Shown here piece by piece: positions 18,067-62,150 of a stretch of DNA of 64,000 nucleotides; positions within the stretch are counted from its first letter, which is position 1, and each line of letters begins with the position of its first letter. Position numbers and translations under genes: made by a program. The stretch comes from Neoarius graeffei (Eukaryota > Chordata > Actinopteri > Siluriformes > Ariidae). The stretch is from contig NC_083590.1 in assembly GCF_027579695.1 (NCBI RefSeq), positions 20,404,610 to 20,468,609 of the forward strand. Reading direction: 5' to 3'. Under the pieces are notes generated by a model that was not told where the DNA came from, did no database searches, and worked only from the letters and a program-made list of their open reading frames with translations.

Positions 18067-18071
18067 TTAAA

Positions 18072-24789: not shown

Positions 24790-27470
24790 CAGATGCTTCC
24801 TGATCCCCCGGAAGTCAGACTGAGGTTCTGCAGTCGAGCACGTGCTCGGAGATGAAGACATGAAGGTAAATAATGTGGATTAAAAGTGGACGGAAAATAC
24901 AAATATAACTTATTATAAAAACATTTCAATCCACTGTATAAGGTGTAAATTATTTAATATGAATGTAAGGCAGTGGAAGTGTAGAGTTTTCAGCAGTGCA
25001 TGTGGAGGAAGTCATTTTGAAATTTACTGTGTTACCAAGGTAACATGCTGATCATTTGACATTCTTCAAGTGGTTTAGCCCCATCACTGAATTGGTCTGA
25101 GTTTGATCGTAATTTTACCTTCTAAGACACTTATAACAGTCATTTGAGAGCTTTTAGAATGATCACAAATTATGCAGTGTTCATCTGACCATAGGAAGTC
25201 CAAGCTGTGTTTCTGTGAGTAAATGCAGTTAAAGGGAAATGGGTGTCCTTTTGCTTATTTTAGGATACTTTTTCTTTTTTAATTATATAGTGTGATTTCT
25301 TTGTCAAAGAAAAAAAAACAAACCACAGGAAGACAACTGAGGTTCCTAGTGATCAGGCTGAAAAAAGCCAAAAGAATATCAGGGGATGGATGGATGGACT
25401 GACTAAAGACTGGGTCTCATTGTCATTATACATTATTTGCATGCTCTTATTTTTCATGTAAGTGATGTGCATTTATTTGTGATTGTGCATTTTCAAAGTC
25501 ATGACTTTTATCGCATCTGGTGGCTCCTAAAGGAGCCAATTTGGTTTGGCCACTTGGTGATTTGGCTTATTTAGTGTGGACCAGCTCTGTCTTTAAATCT
25601 AGAATGATCAATCATAGATGTGTGTTTGATCAACTTTTATTCACATTTAAACTGGGGGCTACAGCACCAGGTATCTCTTTAAATCATGTGACTTAATTTA
25701 GAAGTTAATGTCATGATTATGAATAATTTTTGCTGGAGTAATCTGGTATAATGAACGTTCTGTTATGTATTTCTCAGGTTGATTCTTGTCTCATCTGGAG
25801 TCATGCTGATGTTTCAGAGGAAATCTGATGCTTCAAGATCTTAGTTGGTATTGACTGAGGTGAGATGGTTTGAAGGTTTTTTTTTTTTGGGGGGGGATTC
25901 TTTCTCTCTCCTTTTTTTTCTGGTTTCTGCACAGAGGCTGTAGAAACCTGACATGTTTGTATTGGATTAAGGTTTTATAAAATGTAACTTTAGTATTTTC
26001 TTATACAGATGACTCTCAGTATCCTGAGTCCCTGGTTGCTTGGGGTTCTCAGTGAGTTGATTCATTTGTGGAGCCACTCATTGGTTGTGTGTAACGAATG
26101 ATGTGGTTAACTTCCATTAGCCCTTTTTTTTTTTTTAAACAAATAAATACAAATGAAGGTGCACTACACCAGAAATGGATTAAATGAAGATCAGAAATTC
26201 ATCTTCAGTGTAAAACTGAATATTACAATAACTATCAGTGTAATGTTTAAGGATTAAAATGCTTGGTGTGTTCTGATGTTGGTAAATATTCACTGGTGTG
26301 ATTTGGTACAGATGTTCATTAAGGTACATCAAGTGTTTATTCTTATACCATAATTTGTCAGTACTATCAAATAATTTTATTTTTTTTCCATGTTGTTGAA
26401 TAGCCATGAAATAATAAGCTAGTTCCTTTTCTCACAGGTAATTGTAGTCATTCCCTCACTCTTAAAATAAAATCAGCTTGTCCTGTTACTGAGAAGCTGT
26501 ACAGCAGTTAGACTTTTTCACTCTGAGATTCATTGCAGTAAAACATTGAGTTTTCCTCTTCACCAAAATTACTCCTTCACTTCACAAACTCTGTCTACCT
26601 CCTGACTTGACTTAGTGGAGGTGTGTTTAAAAAAAAGGGGGGGGGGGTACTCAGCAGGTGTTCTGGGCCTGAAATTGGAGGAATAGGATAAGAGATTCCT
26701 TATTGATCCCCATGAGGGGAAATTCAGATGTTGCAGCAGCTCAAGTACAGAGAAAATGTAGCTGAGGTTAAAAATAAAGAACTAAATTAAGATAATTGCT
26801 CAAAAAGACAACATAGAAGAACTTTTAGTGGCACTACATCCACTAGTGGTAGTAGAGCTGTATAATGTGACAAAGCGAGTAATTGAAACTAGTGAGATGA
26901 CGTTTTAAGATTGTTTCTGGACCTTTATACAATTTGAAACATTACAACCTGCACCTTTAAGTGATTTACTCCAATACAAGGAGTATAACAGGTTAAACCC
27001 CAAGTCATCATCCCCCCCCCTCCCCCCCCGGAGGCTGCAGGCTGTTCAGCAAGGCTGGGTCTAATCTGTGACTTTGTCCTTTCCTGTATGTCTGCTAGAG
27101 AAACTTGGGGTGGTTTGAGGCCTGACAGCTGTCCCTTCGCTGTCACGTTATAGAAACCTCGTACAAATAAATCTGTATTTGTTAGTGTGGAGAGACACGC
27201 CCTTTGAGAACTGGTGCTTTAGTTTTCTGTTTTGTCTTACAGGAGGTCGGGGTCCAGTGGTGAGGAGATGCATGAGTAAAGAATGATGCTGTAAATTCAG
27301 GTTCCAGTGGACGGTGGTGTGGTTTAATGGATGTTTGTGGTCTGCTCTTTATCCTGGTCTTATGTCATTTTTTTTTTTTTAATTAAATTCAAAAGTATTG
27401 AAATACTGACACGGTGGAGTGTCATGTGTGTGCTTACTGTTAATAAAATACCTCAAAACTGACTTCTTGT
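24790..27470 (+). ncRNA. Candidate three-exon noncoding RNA
   Basis: A CCGGAAGT ETS-type site (24808-24815) precedes an exon end ATGAAG|GTAAAT (donor at 24866). A second exon 25778-25859 lies between TTCTCAG and GTGAGA. A third starts at 27243 after TCTTACAG and runs to AATAAA at 27442-27447. No long open frame joins these exons. The middle exon contains CTGATGT, CTGATGC and CTGAG motifs that weakly resemble C/D-box snoRNA elements, which might instead mark a snoRNA. The evidence is splice-like motifs only; there is no homology. Confidence 0.25.
26690..26745. repeat. Fragment of a fish retroelement end
   Basis: CTTATTGATCCCCATGAGG and GGAAATTCAG resemble the recurrent TTTATTGATCCCCAAAGGG block at the ends of a fish retroelement. 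A related piece lies at 29785-29870. Confidence 0.4.
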
Positions 27471-39434: not shown

Positions 39435-41382
39435 ATGGAGCCAATGGTTATTGAAGTGCTTGGAGTTCCATGCATTCCTCCTCATGATCGGATGGTTGAT
39501 CAGTTAAAGATTCACTTCCAGAAGAGGAGGTATTCTGGAGGAGATGTTTTATCAGTGATTTATCCAACTGCTACCCCAGCCCAGGCTTATGTCATTTTTG
39601 AATCAGCTGAAGGTATGGAAGATGGATACACACTCACTGTTAATTACAATCTTGAGAAAGAGTAATGTCTAAAACCTTTTCAATTTTCATCTTGTCTTCT
39701 TTGTGTTAGTTCCTGGAGTCTTGGAGTGTACTCATGTTTTAGACGTAGACACCAGATTTTATGCAATACATGTAAAGAGAGCTAATTTCTCTGAGGTAAA
39801 ATATTTTTCTTCTTCACATAGATCCTTACACGTAAACAGTTTAGTTGTGATATTTCCCAGATTTCCTGAACATGATCCAAAAACTGAATTGCATCATTGT
39901 CTAAAGTTCTGCATACTGTTTCAGGTGGACATGCGAGTTGAGACCATACTGGACTTGAGGATGTTCAAAGACCGAAAATATGTCTTGACGTGCCTTAAAC
40001 ATTATGACTTTAATGTAACAAAATCCAGTGAAAGTCATCTCCAGTTAAAGGGCTCCTTCTTGAAACTAAAGCTCTTGCGCACTGAGCTCCTACGGCTTCA
40101 GGTTCATGAACATCAGCTGCATAATAGATCTCCATCAGCTCTTCACAACGGCTTCTCTTATGACACGGAGCACAATAGTTTGGATCACAGACTTGCTTCC
40201 AAGTCCATGTCGAGGAATGTTCATAACATGGATGCTGTTAGTCAGCGTCAGTTACTTGATGGTGCCCCATCATTATCATCTCCATATAGAGAGATGGCAT
40301 CTGCTGGATCCCCCAGGAGTCTTCAGAGCAGTTATTCACCCTATGCTGAAAGAAATGCAAGCAGTCCAGTGAATGCTGTTCAAAAATATCAATCACAGGA
40401 CAGCAGTGAACTGCTTGCTCATAGATGGAGCCCCCTTGCTGATGGTGCATCACCATTATCAGCAAATTCTCCATCTAGTCTCACCCTGCTCCACCACACA
40501 TCTCCATTACATAGCGATTCAGCCTCAGGTGGATCTCTTAGGAGGTGTCCAAGCTATGATAGTGGTACATGGGCCAGGTCTTCGCACAGCAGTCCTCAAA
40601 GCTTTCCAGTGGACACAGATACCTTAAACTTTATACTCTCCCAACAGCAGGATGTTGTTAAGGTGATTAACGATTATGGTACTGAGATGAGGGTAAAAGG
40701 TGATGCAGGGTTGACAGTGGTTTCACTCTTTGGAAAGAACAGTGAGAAAGCTAAAGCACATCTTCTGGAAAAGATTAAGGAGATTAGCCCCTCATTGCGC
40801 ACCCAAGAAATATATCTGAAGATGTATACCCCTGCTGAACAAACACAGATCCTTGAAAGAATCCAACGTTATAAAGACTCGGGTGTTATGATTACACATA
40901 GTGGTGATGATGTAAAGCTGGTAGGATCCTCAAAAGGAAGTTTTGAGATGAAGCAAAAGTTACTGGGACACAACGATGACTCTCGCAGAGGAAGGACCAT
41001 GGACAGGAGCTCAAAATCCAGGAGATGCTCCTCTGTACCCAGACAGTATAAGGCAATAGAACATAAACTTGCTACAGATCAAGAAAATCAGGCAAGTGCT
41101 GCAAACATGTACTCTCCTGCAAGTTATCAAGAGGAATCAGATGAAGGAAAAGCTCCACAGATTGTTCAAGGAAAGACTCAGAACAAGAACTCGCAACGGA
41201 CACGCAGCAATTCAGAGTCGCGAGACAAAAACAGGATAATCACAGCACAGCCGATGCATCAAGACATGGAGTTGGTGTCATCAAGTCAAGGAAAGAAGTC
41301 CCAGAAAATACCCTTTCTAAAAGCACTTCAGCCAAGTTTGAGAATCATGACTTTAAAAAAGAATGGATCTAAAAAAAAGTAA
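39435..41382 (+). CDS. rbm43: RNA-binding protein 43-like
   Basis: Coding exons 39435-39612, 39710-39795 and 39925-41382 join in phase (178, 86 and 1458 nt) to 573 residues. Residues 1-60 form an RRM-like fold start (VIEVLGVPC, GGDVLSVIYPT, AYVIFESAE). Residues 61-150 contain HVKRANFSE, ILDLRMF and LKGSFLKLKLLRTELLRL, which align with the middle of mammalian RBM43. After a Ser/Pro-rich low-complexity stretch, DTDTLNFILSQQQD to SGDDVKLVGSSKGSFEMKQ matches the second conserved half. The tail is basic and disordered (SKSRRCSS, ending NGSKKK). It is longer than the human protein (about 357 aa as I recall) because of the linker and tail. ATG 39435 is chosen because it directly follows the acceptor and starts the conserved block. 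The RNA target is unknown. Confidence 0.85.
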
Positions 41383-43202: not shown

Positions 43203-43882
43203 AGTGCATATTCTGGACCAATTCTTTATTGTTTTTTAATATGAAAGTATGTCCCTTTACACACTCATCCAGAAGGGTAATTTTGCACAAGGCCATCTGT
43301 CTACAGCAACAAAAAATAAAATAACAAAACATGTCTGGAAAAATCCCAAGGGAGTCTGGAGCCAGATTTGTGACGTTATCTGCGGAAGCGCCAGCAGGCT
43401 GCGCGAGCTTTGCACGGTTTCAGTGCACAGCCTGTGTAGACCAAGCGCTCCCATTTCTCTCTCATTGTCCGGTCTTTTGGGAAATGATGAGTACTAATCC
43501 CATCATGATTGGTGTTTCTACACCCTCCTACGATACATCTGTTAACCATTTTAATAATTACGCAATAACGTTGAAGAAATTTGCAGAAAACCACCAGGTC
43601 ATTTTCTCATAAACAAACCAGCGCTGACGTAGGATTCAGAAGGAGGCGTGCCGCATGCGACGTCACAAAAATCAGTGCTTCCCGGGAAATCCAAATGCCA
43701 AGTTTTTTCAGAGGCGGACCAATTCGCCTCAAATGGCTTGATTTCAACTGAATTTTTCTGGTATTGCGCAAGGTAAAAAAAATTGCAGAGAATGCAGAAT
43801 GTTACAGATATTTGACCAAAGTTTAATATAAAATAGGTGAATTACATTGATCTTGCTCCTGAATTTACCCGTCATATGCACT
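43203..43882 (-). mobile_element. Kolobok-like element with THAP exon
   Basis: Ends AGTGCATATTCTGG and, in reverse complement, AGTGCATATGACGG lie between TTAA duplications (43199-43202 and 43883-43886). A THAP-domain exon on minus lies inside. TTAA targets together with THAP domains are known for Kolobok transposons. It is only 680 bp, so non-autonomous. Confidence 0.65.
43391..43549 (-). pseudogene. THAP-domain exon in the Kolobok-like element
   Basis: From the ATG at 43547-43549 the minus strand reads MVNRCIVGGCRNTNHDG, HHFPKDRTMREKWERLV. C-x4-C, HHFPKD and the invariant Trp are the THAP N-terminal half. The distal C-x2-H is not seen in this exon. It is distinct from the ISL2EU THAP exons at 5625 and 15021. 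Confidence 0.6.
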
Positions 43883-43929: not shown

Positions 43930-44690
43930 ATCAAATACAGTTCACTAATTATACTGCACTACTGTAGTGTATCTTACGTTATTTTAACACCACAATATCA
44001 GATCGCAGCAGTCTGTGTGCACAGTGGCAAACAATAAATAATCATTATGTTGGAACAAATTTTGCTGTGAAAGTTATCCAGCTTTATTATACAGGGGTAA
44101 ATGTGATGCTTCTGCACTGTCTCACCTCTCAACAGCTCATGATCGACAAGTATGTTCAGATCATCATTGGTCTGGAAGGGAAAGTGTCCAGTAGCAGGAT
44201 GTCTGCTGTTGTCCAACACATATATAAACAGAAAGAGCAGCAACCATTACAAATATGATTCCCCACTGTCTTGTCTTTGATTATATCCCATATGTATTGT
44301 ACACTTACCTTCAAAGCTCGTGGAGACGAAGTCCTTTGACAAGTCCCCACAGTCAAAGTCAATTAACTTCATTTGCACTCTGTTGAGGAGAAGATTCTCT
44401 GCCTTAAAGTCGCGATGAAGAATTTTGCAGTCACAGTAATAATGAGCAGCCTGAACCACCTGAAGCATGAGGTCACAAACCAGTGGTTCACACAGTCACC
44501 GTCTCAAACGCGTAGCTGCTGGGGTTTTTTTTCCGCAGCACTCCTACAGCACACGGTGACAAAGACACCTCTTTTAAACAAACAGTCATTGAGTTCAACT
44601 GAAATAAGAATGAATGCTTTATGCTCTTGTCCTCTCACAATAGACAGTAATGAATTATTAATCTGGCATAAATATTACAGTCTGAATGTA
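43930..44690 (-). pseudogene. Duplicated PIM-like kinase segment, degenerate
   Basis: It aligns at DNA level, introns included, with 45779-47160 of the kinase gene just upstream. Exon remnants: about 44309-44468 (VQAAHYYCDCKILHRDFKAE, KLIDFDCGD) and about 44115-44210 (HPATGHFPFQTNDDL, VDHELLRG). DFG reads DFD. The [10 protein letters not shown] block and most of subdomains VIII-IX are missing, as is everything encoding the glycine loop and lysine. It is a non-processed pseudogene from a local segmental duplication with internal deletion. Confidence 0.8.
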
Positions 44691-45458: not shown

Positions 45459-47453
45459 TTATAACGTACCGTCTAGGCTCCTCCAGGGTGTCTGAGGAAA
45501 AAGCTGATACGCAGGCATCTCGTGAAACATCGGGCACTGAGAAAAGATTTTTACATCATGAATTCATGTGTAATAAGTATGATTTAGTAAATAGAAATAT
45601 CTAATCATATATGACTGCATGCAACACACTAACTGATTTTACTTATTTTAATTAGGTCTAATCTATTCTTGTTGTCTTACCAGGTCTTCCTGAAGTTTCA
45701 CTTGTGAAGTTCCACTTGAAGTAAACCACTTGTGTCTGATGATCTCCTCCAAGGATGGCCGAGACTGAGGATCTTTCTTCAGGCACCATAATATGAGTTC
45801 ACGGCAGTCTGTGTGCACAATGACAAACAAAAATGTATCATGATGTTGAAACTAATTTTGCGGTGCAATTTATACAGTTTTACGACACAGGTGTAAATGT
45901 GATGCTTCTGCACTGTCTCACCTCTAGACAGCGTACGATCTACATATACGTGCCAATTACTAATTTCCTCTTTGGTCTCAAAGGGAAAGTCTCCATGGAG
46001 CAAGTAATATAGGAGCACACCCAGACTCCAGACAGTAGCAGGACGTCCCAGATACTGCTTGTCACATATCCACTCAGGAGGAGAATAAACAGGAGTTCCT
46101 GAGTGAAAAAGAAAGAAAGAGCAGCAACCATTACAAAAATTATTCCCCACTGTCTTGTCTTTGATTATATCCCATATGTATTGTACAATTACCATAAAAG
46201 CTCGTGTAGTAGGAGTCCTTTAACAAGTCGCCACAGCCAAAGTCGATCAACTTTACTTGCAATGTCTCGGTGTTGATGAGAAGATTCTCAGACTTGATGT
46301 CACGATGCAGAACTCCGTGATCACAACAGTGACGAGCAGCCTGAACCACCTGCCACATGATGTCACGAGCCAGTGTTTCAGGCATTTCATTATTGTAGTA
46401 AGAACTACAATACTCCTGCAGGTCCATGCAGGGACTGGGTCGCTCCAGAACCAGGATGATCCACTCAGTCACTTCAAACCATTCCAGCAGCTCTACTACA
46501 TTTTCACAGTGACTCTGCGTGGACGTCATCAGCATCAAGCCAACTTCCAGAGGGAGGGGGTCCTTCTCTCCGGGCTAAAATTACAACAAAACATGACACG
46601 CGTGGGTTTGGAGTAAAATATGTCTAAACCGTGGTAAGCAATGGAAAATGTTTTGGATTGGTTCTGAGTCTAGATCGGCAGCCTTTTACTCATATCTGTT
46701 CTGAATGAAGGATAATGAAATGTGAATCTGAAACATGATTGGGAGGTGACTTAAGAGTACTGTAAGTTTACTTACAATGTTGATGTATTTGTCATCACTT
46801 GCCTTGGAGACATATTTAATAGCAACCTGTTCACAGATTAAAAAAAAAACAAAACAATTAGTACGTTCTAAAAGCTGTAAGTTAACAAATTAATACAATT
46901 ACTACAATTCCACAGCTATGACATTAGATGTCAGGAAATGGAGAGTTATTGTAATGTAATGGAGTAAATGAAAAACTGTATATGTGCAGATATATTTACC
47001 TGTTTCCCATCCTCCTTACGGACTCCTGCAAACACATAGCCAAAGCCTCCTTGTCCCAGCAGCTCTCCCTGAATGTACCTCGACTCTAACACTTCTGTTC
47101 AACAGACACACAATCATTCAGTTCAACTGAAATGAGAATGCACGAGCCTCATGCTTTCAACCTTCATCTCTTTCTCTCTCTACAGTTAATTTTTACTGAT
47201 TTATGTGTGAGCGAGCTATAAAGAATTGCCAGGTGATTTTGCAATGTTAAATAGGTTTTGTGCAAATAGTGAATTCTAACATACCCTGCGGTGTAACGAT
47301 CATCTCTGGAAGAGAAAGCTGGAGTGCAGGAGTCTGACCAGACATTAGGCCACATTTGGAGTCCGCAGTCTCCAAAGACACGTTATGGCAGCTATGTGTG
47401 AACTGTTCTTGGTCAAGATCTTCTGACTTCTTCTGGTGCAGCATTTTATATAA
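45459..47453 (-). CDS. PIM-family Ser/Thr kinase (C-terminal half of a likely Sec16-PIM fusion)
   Basis: Exons on minus: 47453-47285, 47094-47000, 46826-46776, 46574-46193, 46098-45922, 45808-45681 and 45536-45459, all GT-AG and in phase. It has every kinase landmark: glycine loop GQGGFG, VAIK lysine, catalytic [11 protein letters not shown], activation segment [11 protein letters not shown] and [18 protein letters not shown]. The hinge ERPSPCMDL is the PIM hallmark, with Pro preventing a normal hinge hydrogen bond. As a stand-alone protein it would start at the ATG at 47442-47444 (356 aa). However, that exon begins at 47453 after a good acceptor (GTCTTGTAG) with three in-frame codons (LYK) before the Met, in phase with the Sec16-like exon ending at 47988. 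The substrate is not known. PIM kinases are constitutively active, without activation-loop phosphorylation. Last exon: stop TAA at 45459-45461. Confidence 0.85.
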
Positions 47454-47987
47454 CTACAAGACAGACAGGCAAAGTCAAAATAAAGTGGTGATGAAGACAA
47501 TACTATGCATTTAAAACCTCGAAAATACACCAACACATAATCCAGTATAACAAGTTAATTGAGTGGTGGAGGTGGTTGAATTAACGCTAGCTGAGACTGT
47601 TTTGGTGGCTTTGTCATGAAGGCATTGAGTTACGGATCAGATCAGAAGGATGTGTGTTCAAATCCATGCACCACCAAACTGAATTACCATGGTTATGTCC
47701 TTGAACAAGACCTGTAACTTTCATCTTAATTGTTTCCTGCATTTACAATTAGTCACTTTTTTTAAAGCATCCACCAATTGAGCAAACTGGATTATGTGCT
47801 ATTTTATATTATGTAAGATATTATAGTTGTTTACTATAATTTATTTACAGTACTTTATGAGAGAGAGAGAGAGAGAGAGTGAGAGAGAGAGAGGGGGGGG
47901 ACAGGTAGTAGACATTGCCAGTAAATCAAAATCATGTACAATAAAATTCAAAGTAATAATTTTTAGTGTATTGAATATCATGTTTAC
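47454..47987 (-). other. Intron between the Sec16-like and kinase parts
   Basis: About 530 bp from the donor ATGATG|GTAAAC to TTGTAG. It holds a (GA)n run at 47860-47895 and no promoter-like or poly(A) arrangement that would clearly separate two genes. AATAAA does not occur in a convincing 3'-end context on minus. Confidence 0.55.
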
Positions 47988-50900
47988 CATCATCATCAGT
48001 CTCTTCAGCTGCCCCGAGACGCTGATGGATGAAGCGATCACTGCTGTAGCAATGCATACACCATACTCATGAGCACGATCAGGAAGTCCAGCTTCGGCAA
48101 GCTTGATGGCATGCAAGGCCTTGTATTTCTAAGGCAGAAAGAGTCATTCATCATCAGGACAACGCATCCCATTTAAATTTTAGATGGTTTTATATTTAAA
48201 AAAAAAAATTGAGAGAAATTCTAACCTGGAAGTTTTTCTGAGCGAACCCGGAGGACAGGAACAGCATGTATTCATAGATTTCAGTACGCTCAATCGCTTC
48301 CCTGATGGCTGCTTTACTGTTTAGCTGCAACCTGCTGCAAAAGAGAATTAAATATTAGGTCACAAGTGAAGGAAAATAAACGTGCACACACATGCAGAAA
48401 ACCAAAATACCTTCCACATCCAATCAGGTCAAAGATGGCGTTACTGTATGTTCCCAGTTCTTGTTGGGCTACCACATAGCAGATCTGTGCAGGAAAAAAC
48501 TGTCCTTTGTGGGCTACAGGTGAAAAGCAATACATCAGAGTCCATGAAACATGAAACAGCCCAGAGCTGATGATAGATACAAGAGAGGTTACTTTCAGAA
48601 AATACACTGTTACTGTGAAGCTTCTCCATACCAAGACTGTCTGCCATTTCAATCAGAGCTTCTTTTTTCTCGTCGTCTGGGACAGGGAAGCACAAGAGAT
48701 GTGCCAGAGAAAGGCACCAATTTTCCTGATTCTCCCCACCAATAACCTGTAGCAGGAATTTCATGTTAGTCAGCATGACACCAACATAAAACAATGCAGA
48801 AGTACACATTTACAACACATAATACAGTCAGGTGGTGATGTTGATGTGATGATATACTCACTTTTGCTCTGTTCTTCCTCAGACACCTGTAACCCTTGAA
48901 GACACATGGTGCGACTTCACACATCATTGGTTTCTATAAAAAAAAAAAAAAAAGTATTTTAACTTGCATGTTTAGCACAAGTACACTCACTGGCCACTTT
49001 AATAGGAACTTGTTCTTGATTCTAAGATTCCTGTTCTTGGCTGCAGGACTGGAACCCAATGCCGTGTTGTGCTGTTGCATGCTGAGATGCTTTTCTGCTC
49101 ACCACGGTTGTAAAGAGTTGCTATATCTTTCCTGGCAGCTTGAACCAATCTGGCCATTTTCCTCTGACTTCTCTTAACAAGGCGTTTGTTTCCACCTACA
49201 GAACTGTCGCTCACTCAATGTTTTTTTTGTTTTTCGCACCATTCTCTCTGTGTAAACTCTAGAGACTGTTGTGTGTGAAAACCCCAGGAAATCAACAGCT
49301 TCTGAAATACTCAAACCAGTCCATCTGGCTCAAACCAACACCCATGCCACAGTGAAAGGCACACTTTGGAGATCATAATTTTTCCCATTCTGATGTTTGA
49401 AGTGAACATTAACTGAAGCTCTTGATTTGTATCTGCATGATTTTATGCATTGTGTTGCTGTCAAGGAATTGGCTGATTAGATACCTGCATAAAACAGCAG
49501 CTGGGTGGGTGTACTTAATAAAGTGGCCGATGAGTGTATATTTAATCACTAATGCAATTTTTTACATTTCAGAGAATTTTGCTTCAACCATGACATAATG
49601 AACTACAAAACTTACTCCATCTTTCTTGCAGAAGAGCTCCATAATCATCCAGAAGATGTAGGCTTCTTTTTGCCAAGGTTCATCCACATGCAGGAGACAC
49701 TCCTGAGATTTCTTCTGGATAAAGGCAACCAGGTCCTCTTTCTGTATCTCTTTGCTGTGACAGATAATGAAACAGGACAGCACAAAACATTACTTCCGAT
49801 ATAGCCTGTGTATTTAATGTGTGTTATATGAGAGGAGAAAGCGATTCTCACCTCAGCAGAGGGCCAGGAAACGTTTGACTCCAGCGATCGGAGAAGTAGC
49901 CATCATCATGGTCCAGATTGGTGGCACTCCCTGGAGCTAAAACATGAGTTAGAGATAAGACTCGTACTGTACATACTAATATAAACGAACATTCATTTGA
50001 CAGTATTGTACTGTTTTTAATCTAACTGTGTTCAGGATTACAAACTGGGTTAAACATAACACCTTGGAAACATGGGTTTATTTTTATTTATTTCAAACTA
50101 TCTTGTGGGTAAAAATGATTACATTACTGCACTGTTATGGTTACTGCAGGGCTAGGTGATACAACAATGTGTTATATGGACATGAGTGTTTTACTGGGAA
50201 ATACACCACTTGTATTTTTCATACGAGCTCTGTCCGGGACATGGAGAACCAAGACCGTGACATAAATCTCTGTATGTCACTCGTGAGGAAATCGATGAAT
50301 TGTTTTGATAAATTTGGGTAGTTTGTTTATGAAGGTGTCTATATTAAAAAAAAAAGTTATATATAACACTCTGGCTTGAAGATATGAAGTTTCTTCTTGT
50401 GTTGAAAAACTCGCGTTTTTCAGAAGATACAATCGCAGATCTGAGTGAAATCTTTAAATAGCGTTGAGTGGTCTATCAGATATATTCCGTTCAGCTAGCA
50501 TGATGCTGAACAAGTTGAAGATGAGTAGCTGAATGGAATATATCTGATATACCATGAAAAACAGCCAGCCAATATTACCACCTCACCTGGGACAGAGTCC
50601 ACCGGGGGTGAGGTATTGTTTTCGGTGGAGTTTGTTTTTTGCTAATGTTACGGGAAAACGGCTGGACCAATGCTCATGAAACTTTCAAGATAGATGGGCA
50701 TCGGTCTCAAATAGAACCTCCAACATTTTGGGGGTTATCCGGTCAAGGTTTTTGTGGCTACTGCTTCATATACAGTGGGGCAAAAAAGTATTTAGTCAGC
50801 CACCAATTGTGCAAGTTCTCCCACTTAAACAGATGAGAGATGCCTGTAATTTTCATCATAGGTACACTTCAACTATGAGAGACAGAATGGGGGGAAAGAA

Positions 50901-53900
50901 TCCAGGAAATCACATTGTAGGATTTTTAATGAATTAATTGGTAAATTCCTCGGTAAAATAAGTATTTGGTCACCTACAAACAAGCAAGATTTCTGGCTCT
51001 CACAGACCTGTAACTTCTTTAAGAGGCTCCTCTGTCCTCCACTCATTACCTGTATTAATGGCACCTGTTTGAACTCGTTATCAGTATAAAAGACACCTGT
51101 CCACAACCTCAAACAGTCACACTCCAAACTCCACTATGGCCAAGACCAAAGAGCTGTCAAAGGACACCAGAAACAAAATTGTAGACCTGCACCAGGCTGG
51201 GAAGACTGAATCTGCAATAGGTAAGCAGCTTGGTGTGAAGAAATCAACTGTGGGAACAATTATTAGAAAATGGAAGACATACAAGACCACTGACAATCTC
51301 CCTCGATCTGGGGCTCCATGCAAGATCTCACCCCGTGGGGTCAAAATGATCACAAGAACGGTGAGCAAAAATCCCAGAAACACATGGGGGGACCTAGTGA
51401 ATGACCTGCAGAGAGCTGGGACCAAAGTAACAAAGGCTACCATCAGTAACACTACGCCGCCAGGGACTCAAATCCTGCAGTGCCAGACGTGTCCCCCTGC
51501 TTAAGCCAGTACATGTCCAGACCCGTCTGAAGTTTGCTAGAGAGCATTTGGATGATCCAGAAGAGGATTGGGAGAATGTCATATGGTCAGATGAAACCAA
51601 AATAGAACTTTTTGGTAAAAACTCAACTTGTCGTGTTTGGAGCAGAAAGAATGTTGAGTTGCATCCAAAGAACACCATACCTACTGTGAAGCATGGGGGT
51701 GGAAACATCATGCTTTGGGGCTGTTTTTCTGCAAAGGGACCAGGACGACTGATCCGTGTAAAGGAAAGAATGAATGGGGCCATGTATCATGAGATTAAGA
51801 GAAAACCTCCTTCCATCAGCAAGGGCATTGAAGATGAAACGTGGCTGGGTCTTTCAGCATGACAATGATCCCAAACACACCGCCCGGGCAACGAAGGAAT
51901 GGCTTCATAAGAAGCATTTCAAGGTCCTGGAGTGGCCTAGCCAGTCTCCAGATTTCAACCCCATAGAAAATCTTTGGAGGGAGTTGAAAGTCCGTGTTGC
52001 CCAGCCACAGCCCCAAAACATCACTGCTCTAGAGGAGATCTGCATGGAGGAATGGGTCAAAATACCAGCAACAGTGTGTGAAAACCTTGTGAAGACTTGC
52101 AGAAAACATTTGACCTCTGTCATTGCCAACAAAGGGTATATAACAAAGTATTGAGATAAACTTTTGTTATTGACCAAATACTTATTTTCCACCATAATTT
52201 GCAAATAAATTATTTAAAAATCAGTGATTTTCTGGATTTTTTTTTCTCATTTTGTCTCTCATAGTGGGAGCAAGTGGGAGAACTTGCACAATTGGTGACT
52301 GACTAAATACTTTTTTGCCCCACTGTAGAGGCGGTAGCCACTATGTCATTGTGCTGTAAGAATGTAAGAGTGTGACAATAGCGCAGTACGGTGTGTTCTA
52401 ATTGGCTGAGAGGAGTACGTAGTACAGGGTGTTCTGACTGGCTGAGAGCAGCAGAGAATCAGAACCATGTTTATTGGCCAAGTATGTTCACACAAGGTCA
52501 AAATTAAGGTCAAGCTCACCAAAAGGTCAAAATCGTTTTTTCGCGATATCGTCCTTCATATTCACCATAAGTGCTACCAGGTGAGGTTTGTTTTGCCTGG
52601 CAACACGTTGTTATTATTATTATTATTATTCATTCGATTGGGCGGCAGAAAACTCTCATTGGATATTCATATCAGCTTCAGCATGTGACATCATGTCTTG
52701 ATAACCGTGTAATATCGTAAACCATATTCAGTGCTCATTCTCCATTGGGTAGTGACATAATACACGTAGGATAAGCGATATGCTAACAATATTGCATGCT
52801 CTCAAACCAAATGAATGAAACCCACAAGAAGGGAATAGAATACATGTTTTTATTCCATTGAAAAAGTGTCCTGTATGTATAATAATTCCCGATATTTCAC
52901 TCTGATGACATCACTCCCAGTGTTTTCCCACTGACTGGACGTGCAGTGTCAAAATCATGAACCAGATAAAAAAAAAATATTATGATTAACTTGCGTGTTT
53001 TTATTTGCAGATGTGTCCATATAATATAAAGAACATTACATGGCGGCACGAAGATATGAACTTCTCGTGTTGAAAAATATATCATTCATCCACGTCACTC
53101 ACTTGTAATATCTACATTCACCACTTGAAGATAAACTTCATATCTCTGCGCCACTGTAATATCCATCCATCTTCTACTGCTTATCTGGGTCTGGGTCACG
53201 GGGGTAGCAGCCTAAGCAGAGCAGCCCAGACTTCCCTTTCCCTGGCCACGTCCACCAGCTCTTCCGGGGGAATACCAAGGCGTTCCCAGGCCAGCCAAGA
53301 GATGTAATCTCTCCAGCATGTCCTGGGTCTGCCCCGGGGTCTCCTCCCAGTGGGGCATGCCCAGAAAACCTCCCTTGGGAGGTGTCCAGGGGGCATCCTA
53401 ACAAGGTGTCCGAACCACCTCAACTGACTCCTTTTGATGTGGAGCAGCTGTTCTACACCGAGTCTCTCCCGAATGACCAAGCTTCTCACCCTGTCTAAGG
53501 GAGAGCCCAACCACCCTGCGGAGAACATGAAGGCGGACAACATGAAGGCGGGATTGAGGAGATCCTCAAAGTATTCCTTCCACCGTCAGATGATGCCCCC
53601 AGTTGAGGTCAATAGCACGCCATCCTCGCTGTAAACAGTAGGGACAGAGCACTGCTTCCCCTTCCTGAGGTGCCGGACGGTTTGCCAGAATCTCTTTGAG
53701 GCCCCAACCAAAAGTCACTTTCCATGGCTTCACAGAACTCCTCCCACACCCAAGTTTTTGCTTCAGTGACCGCCAGAGCCGCATTCTGCTTGGCCCATTG
53801 GTATCTGTCAGCTGCCTCTGGAGACCCACAGGCTAACCAAGCCCAATAGGACTCCTTCAGCTTGATGGCTCCCCTCACTGCAGGTGTCCACCACCGGGTT

Positions 53901-56900
53901 CAGGGATTACCGCTACGACAGGCACCAACAACCTTGCAGCCGCAGCTCTGCACAGCCGCCTCAGCAATGGAGGTACGGAACATGGTCCACTCAGACTCAA
54001 TGCCCCCATCCTCCCCCAGTATGCAGTTGAAGCTCTGCCGGATGTGGCAGTTGAAGATCTGACAGATAGGAGCCTCCGCCAGACATTCCCAGCATACCCT
54101 CACTACACGTTTGGGCCTGCCAGGGCCTGTCCGGCCTCCTCCCCCACCATCTGATCCAGCTCACCACCAGGTAGTGATCAGTTGACAGCTCTGCTCCTCT
54201 CTTCACCTGAGTGTACAAGACATACGGTTGTACATCAGATGAAATGACTACAAAGTCAATCATTGATCTATGGCTTAGGGTGTGCTCGTGCCATGTGCAC
54301 TTATGGACACCCTTATGCTTGAACATGGTGTTCGTTATGGCCAAACTGTGCATGGCACAGAAGTCCAACAACTGAACACCGCTCAGGTTCAGATTGGGCA
54401 GGCCATTCCTCCCAGTCACACCCCTCCAGGTCTCACAATCATTGCCCATGTGAGCATTGAAGTCCCCCAGTAAAACAATGGAGTCCCCTTGTGGTGCACT
54501 GTCTAGCACCCCACTCAAGGACTCCAAGAAGGCCGGGTACTCTGAACTACCATTTGGCGCATAAGCACAAATGACAGTCAGAGACCGTTCCCTGACCCAA
54601 AGGCGCAGGGAAATGACCCTCTCATTCACTGGGGAGAATTCCGATGTTAGTATGCTGAAATGGGGGGCTATGAATAGCCCCACCCCTGCCCGGTGCCGCT
54701 CACCCTTGGCAACTCCAGCATAGAAGAGAGTCCAACCACTCTCCAGGAAAGTGGTTCCAGATCCCAAGCTATGCGTTGAGGTGAGCCCAACTATATCTAG
54801 TCGGTACCGCTCAACCCCATGCACAAGCTCAGGCTCTTTCCCCACCAGAGAGGTGACATTCCATGTCCCAAAAGCCAGTTTTGTCAGCCAGAGAAAGTTG
54901 TCACCGTGTAATATCCTCGATATAATACTGATATCTTGATAAATTGTCACGATACACTTTCCTGAGATATTGATTTCATAGTTTTATATCTTTGATGGCA
55001 AAATGTGAACGTTTTTACAGATTTCTACATACTCAATGTTTTTATTTTTCTAAAAATTATGTATAAGCATCAAGCTCACAATTTACATTTTTTTGGGTTG
55101 TTTTTGTAATGTAGCTACTGTTTTTGCTGGTAGTTTGTCAGAAAGTTTATATACAGTGGTGTTTGAAAGTTTGTGAACCCTTCTGAATTTTCCACATTTC
55201 TGCATATGACCTAAAACATCAGATTTTCACACAAATCCAAAAAGTCAAGTCAAGTTTATTTCTATAGCACTTTTAACAATAGACATTGTCGCAAAGCAGC
55301 TTTACAGAATTTGAATGACTTTAAACATGAGCTAATTTTATCCCTAATCTATCCTCAATGAGCAAGCCTGTGGCAAGGAAAAACTCCCTCAGACAAGAGG
55401 AAGAAACCTCGAGAAGAACCAGACTCAAAAGGGAAAACATCCTCATTTGGGTGATAACAGACAACATGATAACATTAACAGTTTTAACATGAAGTCAGTT
55501 TCGTTGATAGTAAAAAAAAAAAGTAGATAAAGAGAACCCAGTTAAACAAATGAGACAAAAATATTATACTTGGTCATTTACTTATTGAGGAAAATGATCC
55601 AATATTACATATCTGTGAGTGGCAAAAGTATGTGAACCTCTACGATTAGCAGTTAATTTGAAGGTGAAATTAGAGTCAGGTGTTTTCAATCAATGGGATG
55701 ACAATCAGGTGGGAGTGGGCACCCTGTTTTATTTAAAGAACAGGGATCTATCAAAGTCTGATTTTCACAACACATGTTTGTAGAAGTGAATCAAACAAAG
55801 GAGATTTCTGAGGACCTCAGAAAAAGCATTGTTGATGCTCACCAGGCTGGAAAAGGTTACAAAACCATCTCTAAAGAGTTTGGACTCCACCAATCCACAG
55901 TCAGACAGATTGTGTACAAATGGAGGAAATTCAAGACCATTGTTACTCTCCCCAGGAATGGTCGACCAACTAATGGCCCTTTTCCACTACCCTTTTTCAG
56001 CTCACTTCAGCTCGCTTCAGCTCACTTCAGCCCGACACGGCTCGCGTTTCGACTACCAAAAAACAGCACGACTCAGCTCGCTTCAGCCCTGCTTAGCTCC
56101 TAAAACTCGCACCGTTTTGGAGTGGGGCTGAAGCGAGCCGAAGCGAGCCGAGTGAGGCTGGGGGCGTGAGCAGACACTCCCCTGTGCACTGATTGGTGAG
56201 GAGGAGTGTCCTCACATGCCCACACGCCCCGCGAGCGCGCTGGGATCTGTAAACACCGCAAACCCGGAAGAAGAATAATTACGAATTACGAGAATTTCTG
56301 AAGCCTTATGCGCCTCGCCTCATCTATACGCTCTTGCCAGTATCTGTTGGCGTTGTCGGTGACAACAAGCCACAGCACCAAGACCAGCAACACTAACGAC
56401 TCCATGTCCATGTTTATTGTTTACTATCCGGGTCGTGAGACTACCGCTTAAAAGCTCACCGATGTCACTGTTTGCGCTGCTTAACGACATCACGTGATGT
56501 CCACCCACTTTCGCTAACTCCACCCAATGTGTCCACCCACTTCCAGCCAGCACGGTTCAGCGCGGTTGTAGTCGAAATGCAACTCCAACAGCCCCACTCA
56601 GCTCGACTCAGCACGGCACGGCTCAGCCCGACTCAGCCGCATTTGTAGTGGAAAAGCGGCAAAAGATCACTCCAAGAACAAGGCGTGTAATAGTCAGCGA
56701 GGTCACAAAGGACCCCAGGGTAACTTCTAAGCAACTGAAGACCTCTTTCACATTGGCTAATGTTAATGTTCATGAGTCCACCATCAGGAGAACACTGAAC
56801 AACAATGGTGTGCATGGCAGGGTTGCAAGGAGAAAGCCACTGCTCTCCAAAAAGAACATTGCTGCTCGTCTGTAGTTTGCTAAAGATCACGTGGACAAGC

Positions 56901-59900
56901 CAGAAGGCTATTGGAAAAATGTTTTGTGGACGGATGAGACCAAAATAGAACTTTTTGGTTTAAATAAGAAGTGTTATGTTTGGAGAAAGGAAAACACTGC
57001 ATTCCAGCATAAGAACCTTATCCCATCTGTGAAACATGGTGGTGGTAGTATCATGGTTTGAGCCTGTTTTGCTGCATCTGGGCCAGAACAGCTTGCCATC
57101 ATTGATTGAACAATGAATTCTGAATTATACCAGCGAATTCTAAAGGAAAATGTCAGGACATCTGTCCATGAACTGAATCTCAAGAGAAGGTGGGTCATGC
57201 AGCAAGACAACGACCCTAAGCACACAAGTCGTTCCACCAAAGAATGATTAAAGAAGAATAAAGTTAATGTTTTGGGATGGCCAAGTCAAAGTCCTGACCT
57301 TAATCCAATGGAAATGTTGTGGAAGGACCTGAAGCGAGCAGTTCATGTGAGGAAACCCATCAACATCCCAGAGTTGAAGCTGTTCTGTACGGAGGAACGG
57401 GCTAAAATTCCTCCAAGCCGGTGTGCAGGACTGATCAACAGTTAGTGGAAACGTTTAGTTGCAGTTATTGCTGCACAAGGGGGCCACACCAAATAGGGTA
57501 GTATGTCACTGGGCTGTGACCGCTTGCGACAAATTGCGAACGTCATTCGCGAGAGAGTTTCAAAAGTGTCTTGAAACATTCGCGGGGCTTCTCAATTTCC
57601 TTGCATGAGTCGCAAAGTGTCGCTCCTTCGTCGCTGAAATTTTGAACATGTTCAAAAAATTCGTGCGACAAAATTTCTCTCAAAATAGCCGCAAATGCGT
57701 CGCTGGAGTCGCAAAGCCATCGGAAACCCTTCTCAAGTCAGTTTCCGTGAGGCTTCCTCTACTTCCCTGCCTGCTGAAGGAAAGCCGGGCTGCGACAGCC
57801 TGTGACTAGTTGGAGACAACAATTGTGGTAAAATACCGGTATGTGAATATCAATTCAGTGTGATTCCAAGTGAAAATTGTCACTAATTCGCATATTTTAT
57901 CGCAATTGTTGTGTCTCCAACTAGTCGCAGGCTGTTGCAGCCCAGTGAGATACTGGTTATACTCAAAGCAAAGGTTCACATACTTTTGCCACTCACAGAT
58001 ATGTAATATTGGATCATTTTCCTCGATAAATAAATGACCAAGTATATTATTTTTGTCTCATTTGTTGTTCTCTTTATCTACTTTTAGGACTTGGGTGAAA
58101 ATCTGATGTATGCAGAAATAAAGAAAATTTTAAAGGGTTCACAAACTTTCAAGCACCACTGTATATTAACTGTTATTATGTAGTGTAAGAATGAGAATGG
58201 GGATGAGAGTGTAGTGAAGATGGAAGGAGTAGACGTAAAGAAAGTTGTGAATTCAAGTACCTGGGGTCAACTGCACTATAAAAAATGATTTGTTGTTTTA
58301 ACTTAAAAAAATTAGTGCGAGGGTTGCCTTAAGGGCTGCCTTAAAATTTTGAGTTCACTGAAATTAATATAGTAAGTTCACAACAATTTAACTTACTATG
58401 CGAATTCCAGTGAACTCAAAATTTTAAGGCAGCCCTTGCACTAACTTTTTTAAGTTAAAACAACAAATATTTTTTTTTTACAGTGTGTGCAGGAAAATGG
58501 GGGCTGTGATAGTGAGGTGAGAAAGAGAGTGCAGGCAGGGTGGAGCAGTTGGAGAAGGATTTCGGGAGTCATTTGTGATAGGAAAGTCCCAGCAAAAGTG
58601 AAAGGTAAGATGTATAAGACAGTAGTGAGAGCAGCTGTGATGTATGGATTGGAGACTGTATCCTTAATGAAGAGACAGGAGGCAAAGTTGGAGGTGGCGG
58701 AGTTGAGGATGTTAAGGTTTGCGATGGGAGGCTGGACAGGATAAGGAACGAGCACATCAGAGGGACAGCACATGTGGAGAGCTTGGGAATGAAGCTAAGC
58801 GATGAGACTGAGATGGTATGGGCACATCCTGAGAAGAGATTCAGAGCATGTGGGAAGGAGAATATTGAGGATGTATGGTATAAGACAGTAGATAAGATGT
58901 ACAAGACAGTAGTGTTTCACTTTTGGCGGCACGGTGGTGTAGTGGTTAGCATGGTCGCCTAACAGCAAGAAGGTTCTGAGTTCGAACCCAGCGGCCGGCG
59001 AGGGCCTTTCTGTGCGGAGTTTGCATGTTCTCCCCGTCTCTGCGTGGGTTTCCTCCGGGTGCTCCGGTTTCCCCCACAGTTCAAAGACATGCACTTAGGT
59101 TAACGTGGGGTGGCCTTGGGCTGAAGTGCCCTTGAGCAAGGTACCGAACCCCTGACTGCTCCCTGGGTGCGCTAGTGTGGCTGCCCACTGCTCTGGGTGT
59201 GTGTGTGCGCACGTGTTCACTACTTCAGATGGGTTAAATGCAGAGGATGAATTACACTGTGCTTGAAGTGTGCATGTGACAAATAAAGGTTTCTTCTTCT
59301 AGGATGGAGCTGCCAGGCAAATGAAAGCGAGGAAGGCCAAAGAGGAGATACATGGATGTGGTGAGAGAGGACATGAAAGTGGCAGGTGTGGTAGAGAAGG
59401 ATGCGGAAGACAGGGAGAAATGGAGACGAAAGATCCGCTGTGGAGACCCCTAATTGGGAGCAGCCAGCAGGCATGGTTTTAAGGGGTGGCAAAAGGTGGT
59501 AGTTGCCACTGTAAAAATATGTCTTGCCACCCCAGTTTCCCCCCTATTTTAAAAATAATTATTTATTAAAACACATTTTTGACATTCAATTACATCTATC
59601 TACAGAGATACTAAGCCCTCATCTCATCTCTACCTACCGTTATTTACGTTATTTCACACCCCACCCCACCCCCAGAATTTTGAAATGGTTTCACCCAGAG
59701 AGAGACGTTCTTCTGTTATGATTCTTCTGAATGCTCGACTTCTGATGAGGCAACATGCTGGAGCAAAGAGGTTGGTCAAATTGTTTTCACCTGATAGAAC
59801 ACAGTCTTGTCCTTTCTATGTTAAATGCATTTTGGTACTCAATTATTCTTTTAGCCCAGCTATACAGTCATTGGTTGGATGTATGGAGTGCTGTCTCACT

Positions 59901-60768
59901 AGGTTCCGGTAGTAGCTATACCTGTAAGTTATGCTTTACTTTCTGTGTATGCTAGGCAACGAAATGAAAGCTAATAGTTTTAGAAAGTAAACAGCTTGTG
60001 TGTTGTGTGTTAGCATTACTAGCAGGTCAGCCTAGCTCGCGTTTTCACCTGTGTGCTATTCAGTTTAGTGATATACTTAATTTGTTTCTTTTAGTTTTAC
60101 AGAAATCGAGGATGAACACATCTGTATAAGTTTGAAGTCTTCAGTAAAGATCCACAATCTAAACCGCTCGCCATCTGTCTATTTTTTGATACATCGCTAA
60201 GGCAGAATAGTTCCATTCATTGCTTGGGAATATAGTTTCAGAAAAGATGGTTGAATCAATTTTCCTTGATGGTACAATAGCTCAATACATATTTGACAAG
60301 ATGACTTGATTGTGAGTCTTTCTTGAGCGCAAGTAAAAATGATTTCTACGATTTGCATAAACTGCTGCATCGATAACCTATGCCTCCCTCCTGGAACCTA
60401 TGCCCCTCCTTTGCCACCCTAAGGAAAAATCTCTGGAGCCACCACTGGCAGCCAGAAGATGAAGAAGAAGTAGTAGTGTAAGAATTTCAGATTATTTTGT
60501 GAAATTTTCTGACAAAAATATGCAAAATTCAAGCTAACTTTCCCACAATTTCCTTTCAGATAGTGTGAGCGAATGTACATCATTTTGTTGTATAAAATAC
60601 ACCTTAGAAAAAAAGTTATTAACGACATAATAATAACAACAACAACAAGAGAAGTAAGTGAGGTGTGTGTGTGAGAGAGAGAGAGATACCTGTCCCCACT
60701 TGGGAAACACCATATTTTTCTTCATAGCGGTGAAGAACATCAGAGCTGCTGAACATAAAGTTGTACAT
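47988..60768 (-). CDS. Sec16-like central conserved domain (N-terminal half of a likely fusion)
   Basis: Exons on minus: 60768-60690, 49936-49852, 49754-49616, 48933-48862, 48746-48632, 48504-48411, 48334-48226 and 48128-47988. Phases agree at every junction. The product (278 residues to this point) aligns in order with the central domain of Sec16, the scaffold of COPII budding sites on the ER. Blocks: [18 protein letters not shown] (Sec16A has FPGPLVKDETHKVDVLNF), [42 protein letters not shown] and [13 protein letters not shown]. The middle of the usual domain is shorter than in Sec16A. ATG 60766-60768 is chosen as the first in-frame Met of the exon. The first exon is less certain, since it shows no homology and joins over a 10.7-kb intron full of transposons. 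The exon 48226-48334 has a CAGCAG tandem acceptor. Confidence 0.72.
48984..49536. mobile_element. Tc1/mariner-type non-autonomous element
   Basis: Ends CACTCACTGGCCACTTTA and its inverted partner AAGTGGCCGATGAGTG lie between TA dinucleotides (48982-48983 and 49537-49538). No transposase. It sits in an intron of the Sec16-like gene. Confidence 0.85.
50000..50772. other. Intron, probable unclassified repeat
   Basis: Sequence near 50380-50420 (GATATGAAGTTTCTTCTTGTG) recurs in changed form near 53050-53080. This suggests that one repeat was split by the Tc1 element and the LINE that follow. No ends defined. Confidence 0.35.
50773..52325 (+). mobile_element. Tc1-like transposon, near full length
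   Basis: Ends CAGTGGGGCAAAAAAGTA and TTTTTTGCCCCACTG with TA duplication (50771-50772 and 52326-52327). CACCAATTGTGCAAGTTC and CCCACT blocks are repeated inverted inside the ends (long inverted repeats). It is 1553 bp, the usual Tc1 size, and carries one transposase gene, decayed. Confidence 0.95.
51136..52154 (+). pseudogene. Tc1-like transposase, two frameshifts
   Basis: From [15 protein letters not shown]: an N-terminal paired-type HTH ([20 protein letters not shown]), then the DDE catalytic domain with [22 protein letters not shown] and [15 protein letters not shown] (DD34E type). All three acids are visible. Small deletions near 51455 and near 51800 shift the frame, so the protein is not made from this copy. 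Otherwise it is close to full length (about 340 codons). Confidence 0.93.
52330..53159. other. Intron, nothing firm recognised
   Basis: An (ATT)n tract lies at 52608-52632. The segment with CACGAAGATATGAACTTC (53047) resembles 50380-50420. No coding exon found. Confidence 0.4.
53196..53543 (-). pseudogene. LINE pol C-terminal tail
   Basis: It reads [59 protein letters not shown]. This is the RWFGH...RGRP block seen at the end of many fish LINE pols. It is joined directly to upstream sequence because the RT core is deleted. Confidence 0.8.
53997..54895 (-). pseudogene. LINE endonuclease (APE) domain
   Basis: It reads [55 protein letters not shown] and [11 protein letters not shown], ending with [15 protein letters not shown] and STDHYLV are the APE catalytic blocks. 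The metal-binding E position reads T in GLTSTH, a form common in this LINE family. Open over about 300 codons. Confidence 0.87.
55244..55520 (+). mobile_element. Poly(A)-ended retroposon
   Basis: It starts AAGTCAAGTCAAGTTTAT and contains GCACTTTTAACAATAGACA and GAGGAAGAAACCTCGAG, ending in an A-rich tract. AAAAAGT occurs on both sides. This is a frequent fish repeat, family not named. Confidence 0.6.
55774..57497 (+). pseudogene. Tc1-like transposase, decayed
   Basis: Pieces in order: HTH ([35 protein letters not shown]) to 55978. After the MITE come [40 protein letters not shown] and [15 protein letters not shown]. Stops occur at several places, for example near 56872, 57060, 57107 and 57245. 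DD34E acids remain visible except for normal drift at the last block. Confidence 0.9.
55976..56655. mobile_element. Harbinger-like MITE rich in CAGCTC motifs
   Basis: GGCCCTTTTCCACTACC at the left and GTAGTGGAAAAGCGGC at the right are inverted ends. Both flanks hold arrays of CTCAGCTC/CAGCCCGACTCAGC-like motifs. A 38-codon minus ORF (about 56298-56411) starting [17 protein letters not shown] lies inside and resembles short ORFs of such elements. Confidence 0.65.
57497..57952. mobile_element. MITE with inner 33-37 bp inverted repeat
   Basis: TCACTGGGCTGTGAC near the left and GTTGCAGCCCAGTGA at the right pair as ends. A second inverted repeat (AGCCTGTGACTAGTTGGAG at about 57797 and CTCCAACTAGTCGCAGGCT ending about 57934) lies inside the right half. 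GTCGCA/TGCGAC motifs recur throughout. Confidence 0.6.
58270..58485. mobile_element. Hairpin MITE in a LINE
   Basis: ATTTGTTGTTTTAACTTAAA and its inverted partner TTTAAGTTAAAACAACAAAT flank an inner inverted pair with TGAGTTCACTG and CAGTGAACTCA. Almost the whole 216 bp folds on itself. The TTTTACAGTG end is typical of a very common fish MITE. Confidence 0.75.
58925..59300 (+). mobile_element. tRNA-derived SINE, long-tail subtype
   Basis: GGCGGCACGGTGGTGTAG to AATAAAGGTTTCTTCTTCT. Same subtype as 1312-1640 and 32758-33131. It lies in the LINE 58165-60475. Confidence 0.93.
59468..60447. mobile_element. Non-autonomous hAT element
   Basis: It begins CAGGCATGGTTTTAAGGG and ends GGAGCCACCACTG, with an exact 8-bp duplication GCAGCCAG (59460-59467 and 60448-60455). 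TGGCAAAAGG/CCTTTGCCA blocks mirror each other inside the ends. No transposase. Confidence 0.82.
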
Positions 60769-61029
60769 CTCGAACAAAATCGTTGACAATAACTGTAAAA
60801 TATCAGAAATAGAAATGTACATGTGATTAATTTGATGTACTGATTGTTTTGCTTTTCTGTCACCTCTCGGTGGAATCATTTCACCTTTCCACGGTCAATA
60901 AACTAGACCAGGGGTTTTCAAAGTGTGGGAGAGTCAGCCCGCCCTCAGAGAGCAAATAAACAGCGCCCCCTTACAATTTTTGTTGCTATACTTAATGTTC
61001 CATTCGTATTTAAAAAAAAAAAAAAGGTT

Positions 61030-62150
61030 GTTGTACACATTTTAATTTTTTTCTTTTACACATTTTAAACATCTGTGCTTTTTGAAAACATCTTTTTTTT
61101 ACACATTTAAAACATCTGTGCTTTTTAAAACCTCTTTACACATTTTAAACATCTGTGCTTTTTTAAAAAACATCTTGTTTTGCACATTTTAAACATCTGT
61201 GCTTTTTTAAAAAACATCTTGTTTTGCACATTTTAAACATCTGTGCTTTTTTAAAAAACATCTTGTTTTGCACATTTTAAACATCTGTGCTTTTTTAAAA
61301 AACATCTTGTTTTGCACATTTTAAACATCTGTGCTTTTTTTTAAAAAAACATCTTGTTTTGCACATTTTAAACATCTGTGCTTTTTTTAAAAAAACATCT
61401 TGTTTTGCACATTTTAAACATCTGTGCTTTTTTTTTAAAACATCTTGTTTTTACATATTTTAAACATCTGTGCTTTTTAAAACCTCTAACACATTTTAAA
61501 CATCTGTGCTTTTTTAAAAAACATCTTGTTTTGCACATTTTAAACATGTGCTTTTTTAAAAAACATCTTGTTTTGCACATTTTAAACATCTGTGCTTTTT
61601 TTTTAAAACATCTTGTTTTTACACATTTTAAACATCTGTGCTTTTTTTTAAAACATCTTGTTTTTACATATTTTAAACATCTGTGCTTTTTAAAACCTCT
61701 AACACATTTTAAACATCTGTGCTTTTTTAAAAAACATCTTGTTTTGCACATTTTAAACATCTGTGCTTTTTAAAAAAAACATCTTGTTTTGCACATTTTA
61801 AACATCTGTGCTTTTTTTTTAAACATCTTGTTTTTACACATTTTAAACATCTGTGCTTTTTAAAACCTCTAACACATTTTAAACATCTGTGCTTTTTTAA
61901 AAAACATCTTGTTTTGCACATTTTAAACATCTGTGCTTTTTTTTTTAAAACATCTTGTTTTGCACATTTTAAACATCTGTGCTTTTTTAAAAAACATCTT
62001 GTTTTGCACATTTTAAACATCTGTGCTTTTTTTAAAAAAACATCTTGTTTTGCACATTTTAAACATCTGTGCTTTTTAAAACCTCTTTTTTTAAAACACA
62101 GTTTAAACATCTGTGCTTTTTTAACATTTTTTTTTTTACACCTTTTAAAC
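61030..62150. repeat. Minisatellite with ~44-bp unit, about 25 copies
   Basis: The unit is built of ACATTTTAAACATCTGTGC, a T/A run of variable length and AACATCTTGTTTTGC. Higher-order variants (TTTTAAAACCTCTAACAC) recur about every 185-200 bp. The array continues as decayed units to about 62590 beyond the SINE. Long Lys/Cys-rich open frames on both strands are a by-product of the repeat. Confidence 0.93.

Follow-up and report, generated by a model that had tools for sequence, protein, structure and literature searches.

The window analysed here is a stretch of 64,000 nucleotides from the siluriform fish Neoarius graeffei (NCBI RefSeq assembly GCF_027579695.1, contig NC_083590.1, positions 20,404,610 to 20,468,609 of the forward strand). 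Its minus strand holds what is very probably a single-chain fusion gene, where part of a Sec16-type helical domain is followed, in frame, by a PIM-type kinase. An original prediction, drawn from the letters alone, had proposed fifteen exons with GT-AG borders and compatible phases. This holds: once joined, they yield one open frame of 1923 nt (640 amino acids and a stop), and the 14 introns are all of the GT-AG type, with phases compatible throughout. The exons, with the intron that separates the two halves, are as follows.

60690..60792, minus: exon 1, probably up to 60792 (60690-60768 in the earlier model, with its ATG at 60768; the conserved block extends to the acceptor at 60792/60793)
49852..49936, minus: exon 2, perhaps the last part of the Sec16 mid-region (FPGPL), the PF12932 match being below cut-off
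49616..49754, minus: exon 3, Sec16-type; end position and phase as in the SEC16A CRQNG exon
48862..48933, minus: exon 4, short; by eye, it seems a stump of the SEC16A VVGTDIADLLLKEH exon
48632..48746, minus: exon 5, TPR_Sec16; phase-1 end like SEC16A
48411..48513, minus: exon 6, TPR_Sec16; phase-2 donor like SEC16A
48226..48334, minus: exon 7, TPR_Sec16; phase-0 end like the SEC16A NFQ exon
47988..48128, minus: exon 8, TPR_Sec16; phase-0 end like the SEC16A IIQ exon
47454..47987, minus: intron 8, 534 base pairs, between the two halves
47285..47453, minus: exon 9 (junction); 5′ end akin to the SEC16A MSERL exon, 3′ end linker
47000..47094, minus: exon 10, glycine loop GQGGFG of the PIM kinase; 3′ border shared with a canonical pim gene
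46776..46826, minus: exon 11, catalytic lysine VAIK; 51 base pairs, as in a canonical pim gene
46193..46574, minus: exon 12, kinase hinge
45922..46098, minus: exon 13, PPEW and C-lobe
45681..45808, minus: exon 14, end of the C-lobe
45459..45536, minus: exon 15, C-terminal tail with the stop; same residues as in the copy at C23:8.91 Mb

Splice sites were scored with an ad hoc matrix and ranked as percentiles among same-strand sites. All 14 donors fall within the top 9% of GT sites, while the acceptors of exons 2-14 (13 of 14) stand above the 87th percentile, that of exon 15 being at the 82nd. At the critical border, the exon 8 donor lies at the 94th percentile and the exon 9 acceptor at the 98th, with the frame kept, in agreement with the strong, phase-matched acceptor first noticed at the junction exon. 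Exon 2 has to end at 49852 for the frame to be kept. A skip from exon 7 to exon 9 would preserve the frame; a direct splice from exon 8 to exon 10 would not, so that exon 9 is needed.

The first half is derived from Sec16. Pfam recognizes TPR_Sec16 (PF12931) at residues ~130-280, with an E-value of 6.8e-18 for the head alone (65.9 bits against a cut-off of 22) and 76-84 bits in three paralogues. The Sec16 mid-region (PF12932) scores 20.7 bits, under its cut-off of 23, and 18.9 without exon 1, which contributes less than 2 bits. A search of solved structures with the Sec16 half gave no match at E <= 10. Five intron positions and phases, after exons 3, 5, 6, 7 and 8, are shared with SEC16A; the intron following exon 6 was compared at its donor alone, as no AG stands directly before SEC16A SLPFVKF. 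Exon 4 looks like the remains of the VVGTDIADLLL exon of SEC16A, a reading based on a global alignment of the C15 copy, tblastn not detecting this similarity at E <= 1.

The second half is a complete PIM-type kinase, as had been predicted. It begins at residue 338, and Pfam places Pkinase at residues 345-601 (E 5.6e-57). The best solved structures are PIM-1 (253 bits) and PIM-2 (222 bits), the next kinase being at 113. All seven catalytic motifs that were checked are complete, including HRD, DFG and the hinge ERPxP, the proline of which we take to be a PIM hallmark. Exons 10-12 end at the same borders as those of the canonical pim gene on C10 (one canonical pim was compared, over a stretch that leaves exon 13 outside). 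The kinase is predicted to be active.

The two halves meet in exon 9. Its acceptor has the same place and phase as that of the MSERL exon of SEC16A; the motif LSERLHQGKGKEPEWLINLRQLH of the C15 paralogue can be aligned to MSERLRFFDPQLKEKPEQELFQEPDWLLQLRKL in this genome's own SEC16A, and the EPEWLL motif kept by the paralogues resembles EPDWLL in SEC16A. The Sec16 part of the exon has diverged in the window copy and is recognizable through the paralogues. As counterpart of the MSERL exon, exon 9 belongs to the Sec16 side, which rules out that it is the first exon of a PIM gene; with exons 10-12 having the borders of a canonical pim, it follows that a Sec16-type exon splices into the second PIM-type exon. 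Residues ~279-335 had been taken as a linker. This is right for the 3′ end of exon 9; its 5′ part is Sec16 sequence, as the paralogues indicate. A homologue of exon 9 sits between the halves in 10 of the 11 loci examined:

window, C23:8.91, C9:78.81, C25:37, C15:20 and C3:117 (contig and position in Mb): exon 9 homologues
C23:20.74: exon 9 homologue, split and broken
C18:21.6 and C3:30: exon 9 homologues with uncertain starts
C18:20.7: exon 9 homologue, E 0.008, from a separate search beyond the stretches covered by the exon-9 scan
C5:34.30: none found in the exon-9 scan

In that scan, the loci that did not serve as references scored 167 (C15), 105 (C25), 69, 55 and 40, against best scores of 10-26 for shuffled versions of the same stretches (ten shuffles each).

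The same plan recurs across the genome. The window's own genome (2.34 Gb, 38 contigs) was searched with the head, the Pfam family and kinase exon 12; the searches went exon by exon and the best candidates alone were scored, so that the counts are lower bounds. Of 22 non-canonical Sec16-type places, 16 are followed downstream on their own strand, at a distance of 1.4 to 15 kb (limit 20 kb), by an exon 12 of PIM type, where 0.004 would be expected; 47 of the 57 kinase places entered this count, the 10 weakest having been dropped. One of the 16, C9:39.65, rests on an E-value of 6.63, and counting C26:41.96, a weak place that was left out, would give 16 of 23. A merely chance neighbourhood of head and kinase is rejected by these figures. 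The C15 paralogue is open through exons 3-14 (552 amino acids), with TPR_Sec16 at 4.8e-21 and Pkinase at 1.5e-54 in Pfam; 8 of its 12 exons match the window's in length, and its identity to the window protein is 55% for the head and 59% for the kinase. In a copy on C25 the frame is open through exons 3 and 5-12, in that at C3:117 through exons 3-10. Over 11 loci, the identities of the two halves correlate (Pearson 0.85, reached by 0 of 5000 permutations; Spearman 0.44, by 42 of 5000). No relative of the head or of the kinase turned up in viral contigs. That related copies elsewhere follow the same plan speaks for an old gene family, not an accident of reading. Some arrangements stand apart:

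C15:20139871-20151734, plus: four kinase cassettes in a row after one Sec16 head, each starting at exon 10 on the strand of the head; all four exon-12 matches are free of stops
C5:34.18-34.36 Mb, plus: five head-plus-kinase units in tandem, more diverged than the others; the match to exon 12 falls into two parts, as though an intron split it
C23:20744464-20745275: tandem duplication of exons 7-8 inside a decayed copy
C26:41959378-41959845, minus: weak match to TPR_Sec16 profile positions 1-118 (E 0.26), at the place left out of the count
43987..44489 of the window, minus: degenerate second kinase copy with parts of exons 12-14, downstream of the gene (tblastn of the fusion against the window)

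The in-frame fusion proposed at the outset is thus borne out at the level of the gene, by its domains, the linker exon in 10 of 11 loci, the open C15 paralogue and the shared introns, and a single mRNA would span both halves. We think it likely that the locus is a chimeric Sec16-PIM gene belonging to a family of many loci, its head serving for docking or dimerization. A number of observations weigh against this, and are given here along with the rival explanations. The halves might be two genes, merely duplicated together, a Sec16-like one that ends in intron 8 and a PIM gene beginning in exon 9 at the Met of LYKML. The original prediction saw no convincing 3′ end in that intron; it did not mention one AATAAA at 47845, although about half of one is expected there by chance, from base composition. 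Exon 9 does contain an in-frame Met in the window, and kinase copies without a Sec16 module exist in the genome. As to the chimeric gene, it also counts against it that six of the 22 Sec16-type places have no kinase (C25:18.08, C25:55.12, C5:0.85, C26:10.08, C21:58.03 and C2:21.58), and that without the two extra C23 copies the Spearman correlation drops to 0.33 (444 of 5000 permutations), which is not significant. In the window, C15, C25 and C3:117, the frame of exon 9 continues into exon 10, but both the modelling of exons and the exon-9 scan required AG/GT and the expected phase, so that the agreement of phase among paralogues is partly built in; the independent support is homology up to the borders and equal exon lengths. 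Against two genes, however, stand the correspondence of exon 9 to the SEC16A MSERL exon, which puts it on the Sec16 side, this passage in frame, and the order and strand kept in 16 of 22 places. We hold this explanation to be very improbable.

A decaying pseudogene, open by chance, would be another explanation. Two of the three close C23 copies show breaks, the window copy being the sole intact one among its three close copies. At C23:8.91, exon 5 is spread over two frames and exon 10 is not seen in clean form; at C23:20.74, exon 13 is shortened and exons 14-15 were not found. Elsewhere, the kinase exons of C9:78.81 are broken and both C18 copies have HHD instead of HRD. From this decay across copies, it appears that the family turns over fast; a ruined kinase copy even adjoins the window gene. 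The ratio of non-synonymous to synonymous rates (dN/dS) was obtained by simple counting over the exons that could be modelled cleanly, broken ones being omitted, with p from a Fisher test on rounded counts. Between the window and the two C23 copies and C15, it is ~0.5 for the head and 0.14-0.36 for the kinase, dN being lower than dS in both halves. The departure from neutrality against C15 has p 1.4e-4 for the head and 3.9e-10 for the kinase; against the close copies, the head, at only about 0.5, hardly departs from it (p 0.036 and 0.091). A pseudogene would accord with this loose head and with the breaks. It agrees poorly with a frame that stays open through all 15 exons, every splice site and the seven checked kinase motifs being in place, with kinase dN/dS of 0.14-0.24 against the close copies, and with exon 15 residues unchanged in C23:8.91, so that we find it quite unlikely.

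What the head does is less certain. The match to TPR_Sec16 starts only at profile position 92-100 in all four members scanned, the first 91-99 positions being missing, whereas the canonical SEC16A of the same genome additionally matches positions 12-74. The missing SEC16A pieces have no convincing homologue in the window gene or in nine related loci, the sole match outside SEC16A being of seven residues (E 0.87). What had been read as the Sec16 central domain is its back half. The Sec13-binding beta-blade presumably lies in the missing front half, and the fusion protein has then probably lost Sec13 binding. The central domain of Sec16 is composed of a dimerizing solenoid and a Sec13-binding blade, and its disordered C-terminal region binds Sec23, according to PMC7619307. 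A disordered C-terminal region of the Sec23-binding type was not found in the present model, the chain running into the kinase and then a stop. The kinase had been placed at COPII budding sites; with the first 91-99 TPR_Sec16 positions missing, this is not established and stays unsupported so far, docking specifically at exit sites of the endoplasmic reticulum (ER) looking doubtful to us. More generally, the head would dock to partners of the Sec16 type or to itself.

That the head is less constrained than the kinase could have another meaning. The Sec16-derived head might be a bait, resembling a target in the secretory pathway, for which the kinase would be the read-out in an immune or decoy system. 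This would explain the many copies, the losses and the weaker constraint, and it would suit the ~16 head-plus-kinase loci, the tandem units on C5 and the tandem kinases on C15. Ordinary birth and death of duplicates, however, yields the same pattern, and we rate the decoy as unlikely. Somewhat further still goes the idea that one Sec16 head is a shared front for exchangeable PIM cassettes, chosen by alternative splicing, possibly in a fast-evolving defence of the secretory pathway. One head and four cassettes on C15, and one intact and one ruined cassette in the window, are the arrangements that suggest it, and we give it a slim chance.

For the chimeric gene itself, a simple course of events may be proposed. 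In an ancestral duplicate of a Sec16 gene, the central domain would have been reduced to its back half, and the counterpart of the SEC16A MSERL exon would have become spliced to exon 2 of a PIM kinase gene; the entire unit would then have duplicated many times. The outcome would be a PIM-type Ser/Thr kinase carried on the back half of the Sec16 helical domain, where the head most likely docks or dimerizes, choosing partners or place. Sec16-PIM would clearly illustrate how exons of two unrelated genes can be joined and the product then expand, and a kinase on part of an ER-exit-site scaffold family would link signalling and secretion directly.

At the 5′ end, the start of exon 1 had been set at 60768. 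The exon has a homologue on C23: its peptide, extended to the upstream acceptor, is 82% identical to C23:8888518-8888619 (+), 22 kb ahead of exon 2 in the C23:8.91 copy. DNA similarity of the block, however, starts at the acceptor AG in both copies (60792 in the window; C23:8.89 Mb), so that Met-1 may be internal. Exon 1, probably part of the fusion gene, may not be its first coding exon, and further exons may lie beyond 60792. The large first intron contains remnants of Tc1-like transposases (51073-52154 and 55762-57445, both plus), a DDE_3 match covering 51774-52154 and the rest having been recognized by eye. Also by eye, a minisatellite with unit cacagatgtttaaaatgtgcaaaacaagatg... occupies about 61060-62120, upstream of exon 1.

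The rest of the window includes:

10113-11360, minus, and 16715-18070, plus: two reverse transcriptases, only one of which also has matches to RNase H domains; that one we take to be of the long-terminal-repeat type
27035-27168, plus: SNORA9 small nucleolar RNA (87 bits, cut-off 85)
39673-41382, plus: open frame of 569 amino acids without a Pfam match at E 0.001, which looks like part of an RBM43/NMI-type gene
43376-43606, minus: remnant of a THAP domain (E 3.2e-6)

The original prediction knew of no described protein with this architecture, and we came to the same result in the open literature, most subscription papers lying outside it: no paper there joins Sec16 with PIM, or the two Pfam accessions. 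A paper on annotation errors names Sec16 domains and, in another place, a kinase fused to Nic96, which is a different protein; a zebrafish NLR paper and a gene-family paper leave pim unmentioned. It is quite possible that Sec16-PIM proteins have been annotated automatically in other fish. Zebrafish has a large expansion of PIM-like genes, to which the 57 PIM-like matches found here in one fish genome can be likened; we know of no report of a Sec16 head within it. With SEC16A and SEC16B, names which we assign from motifs to the genes at C12:23.02-23.05 Mb and C4:75.22-75.24 Mb (the family itself being given by Pfam), the fusion shares the back half of TPR_Sec16 and the five SEC16A intron positions and phases, that preceding exon 9 among them; it differs in missing the first 91-99 positions of the domain and in having, in the model, a kinase after it. 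PIM-1 and PIM-2, single-domain kinases, are its best structural matches and share the hinge ERPxP, HRD and DFG, exons 10-12 keeping canonical pim borders. On these comparisons, the predicted protein is not Sec16 proper, since two of its defining features are absent, and it is not an ordinary PIM either, for a head of ~337 residues precedes its kinase.

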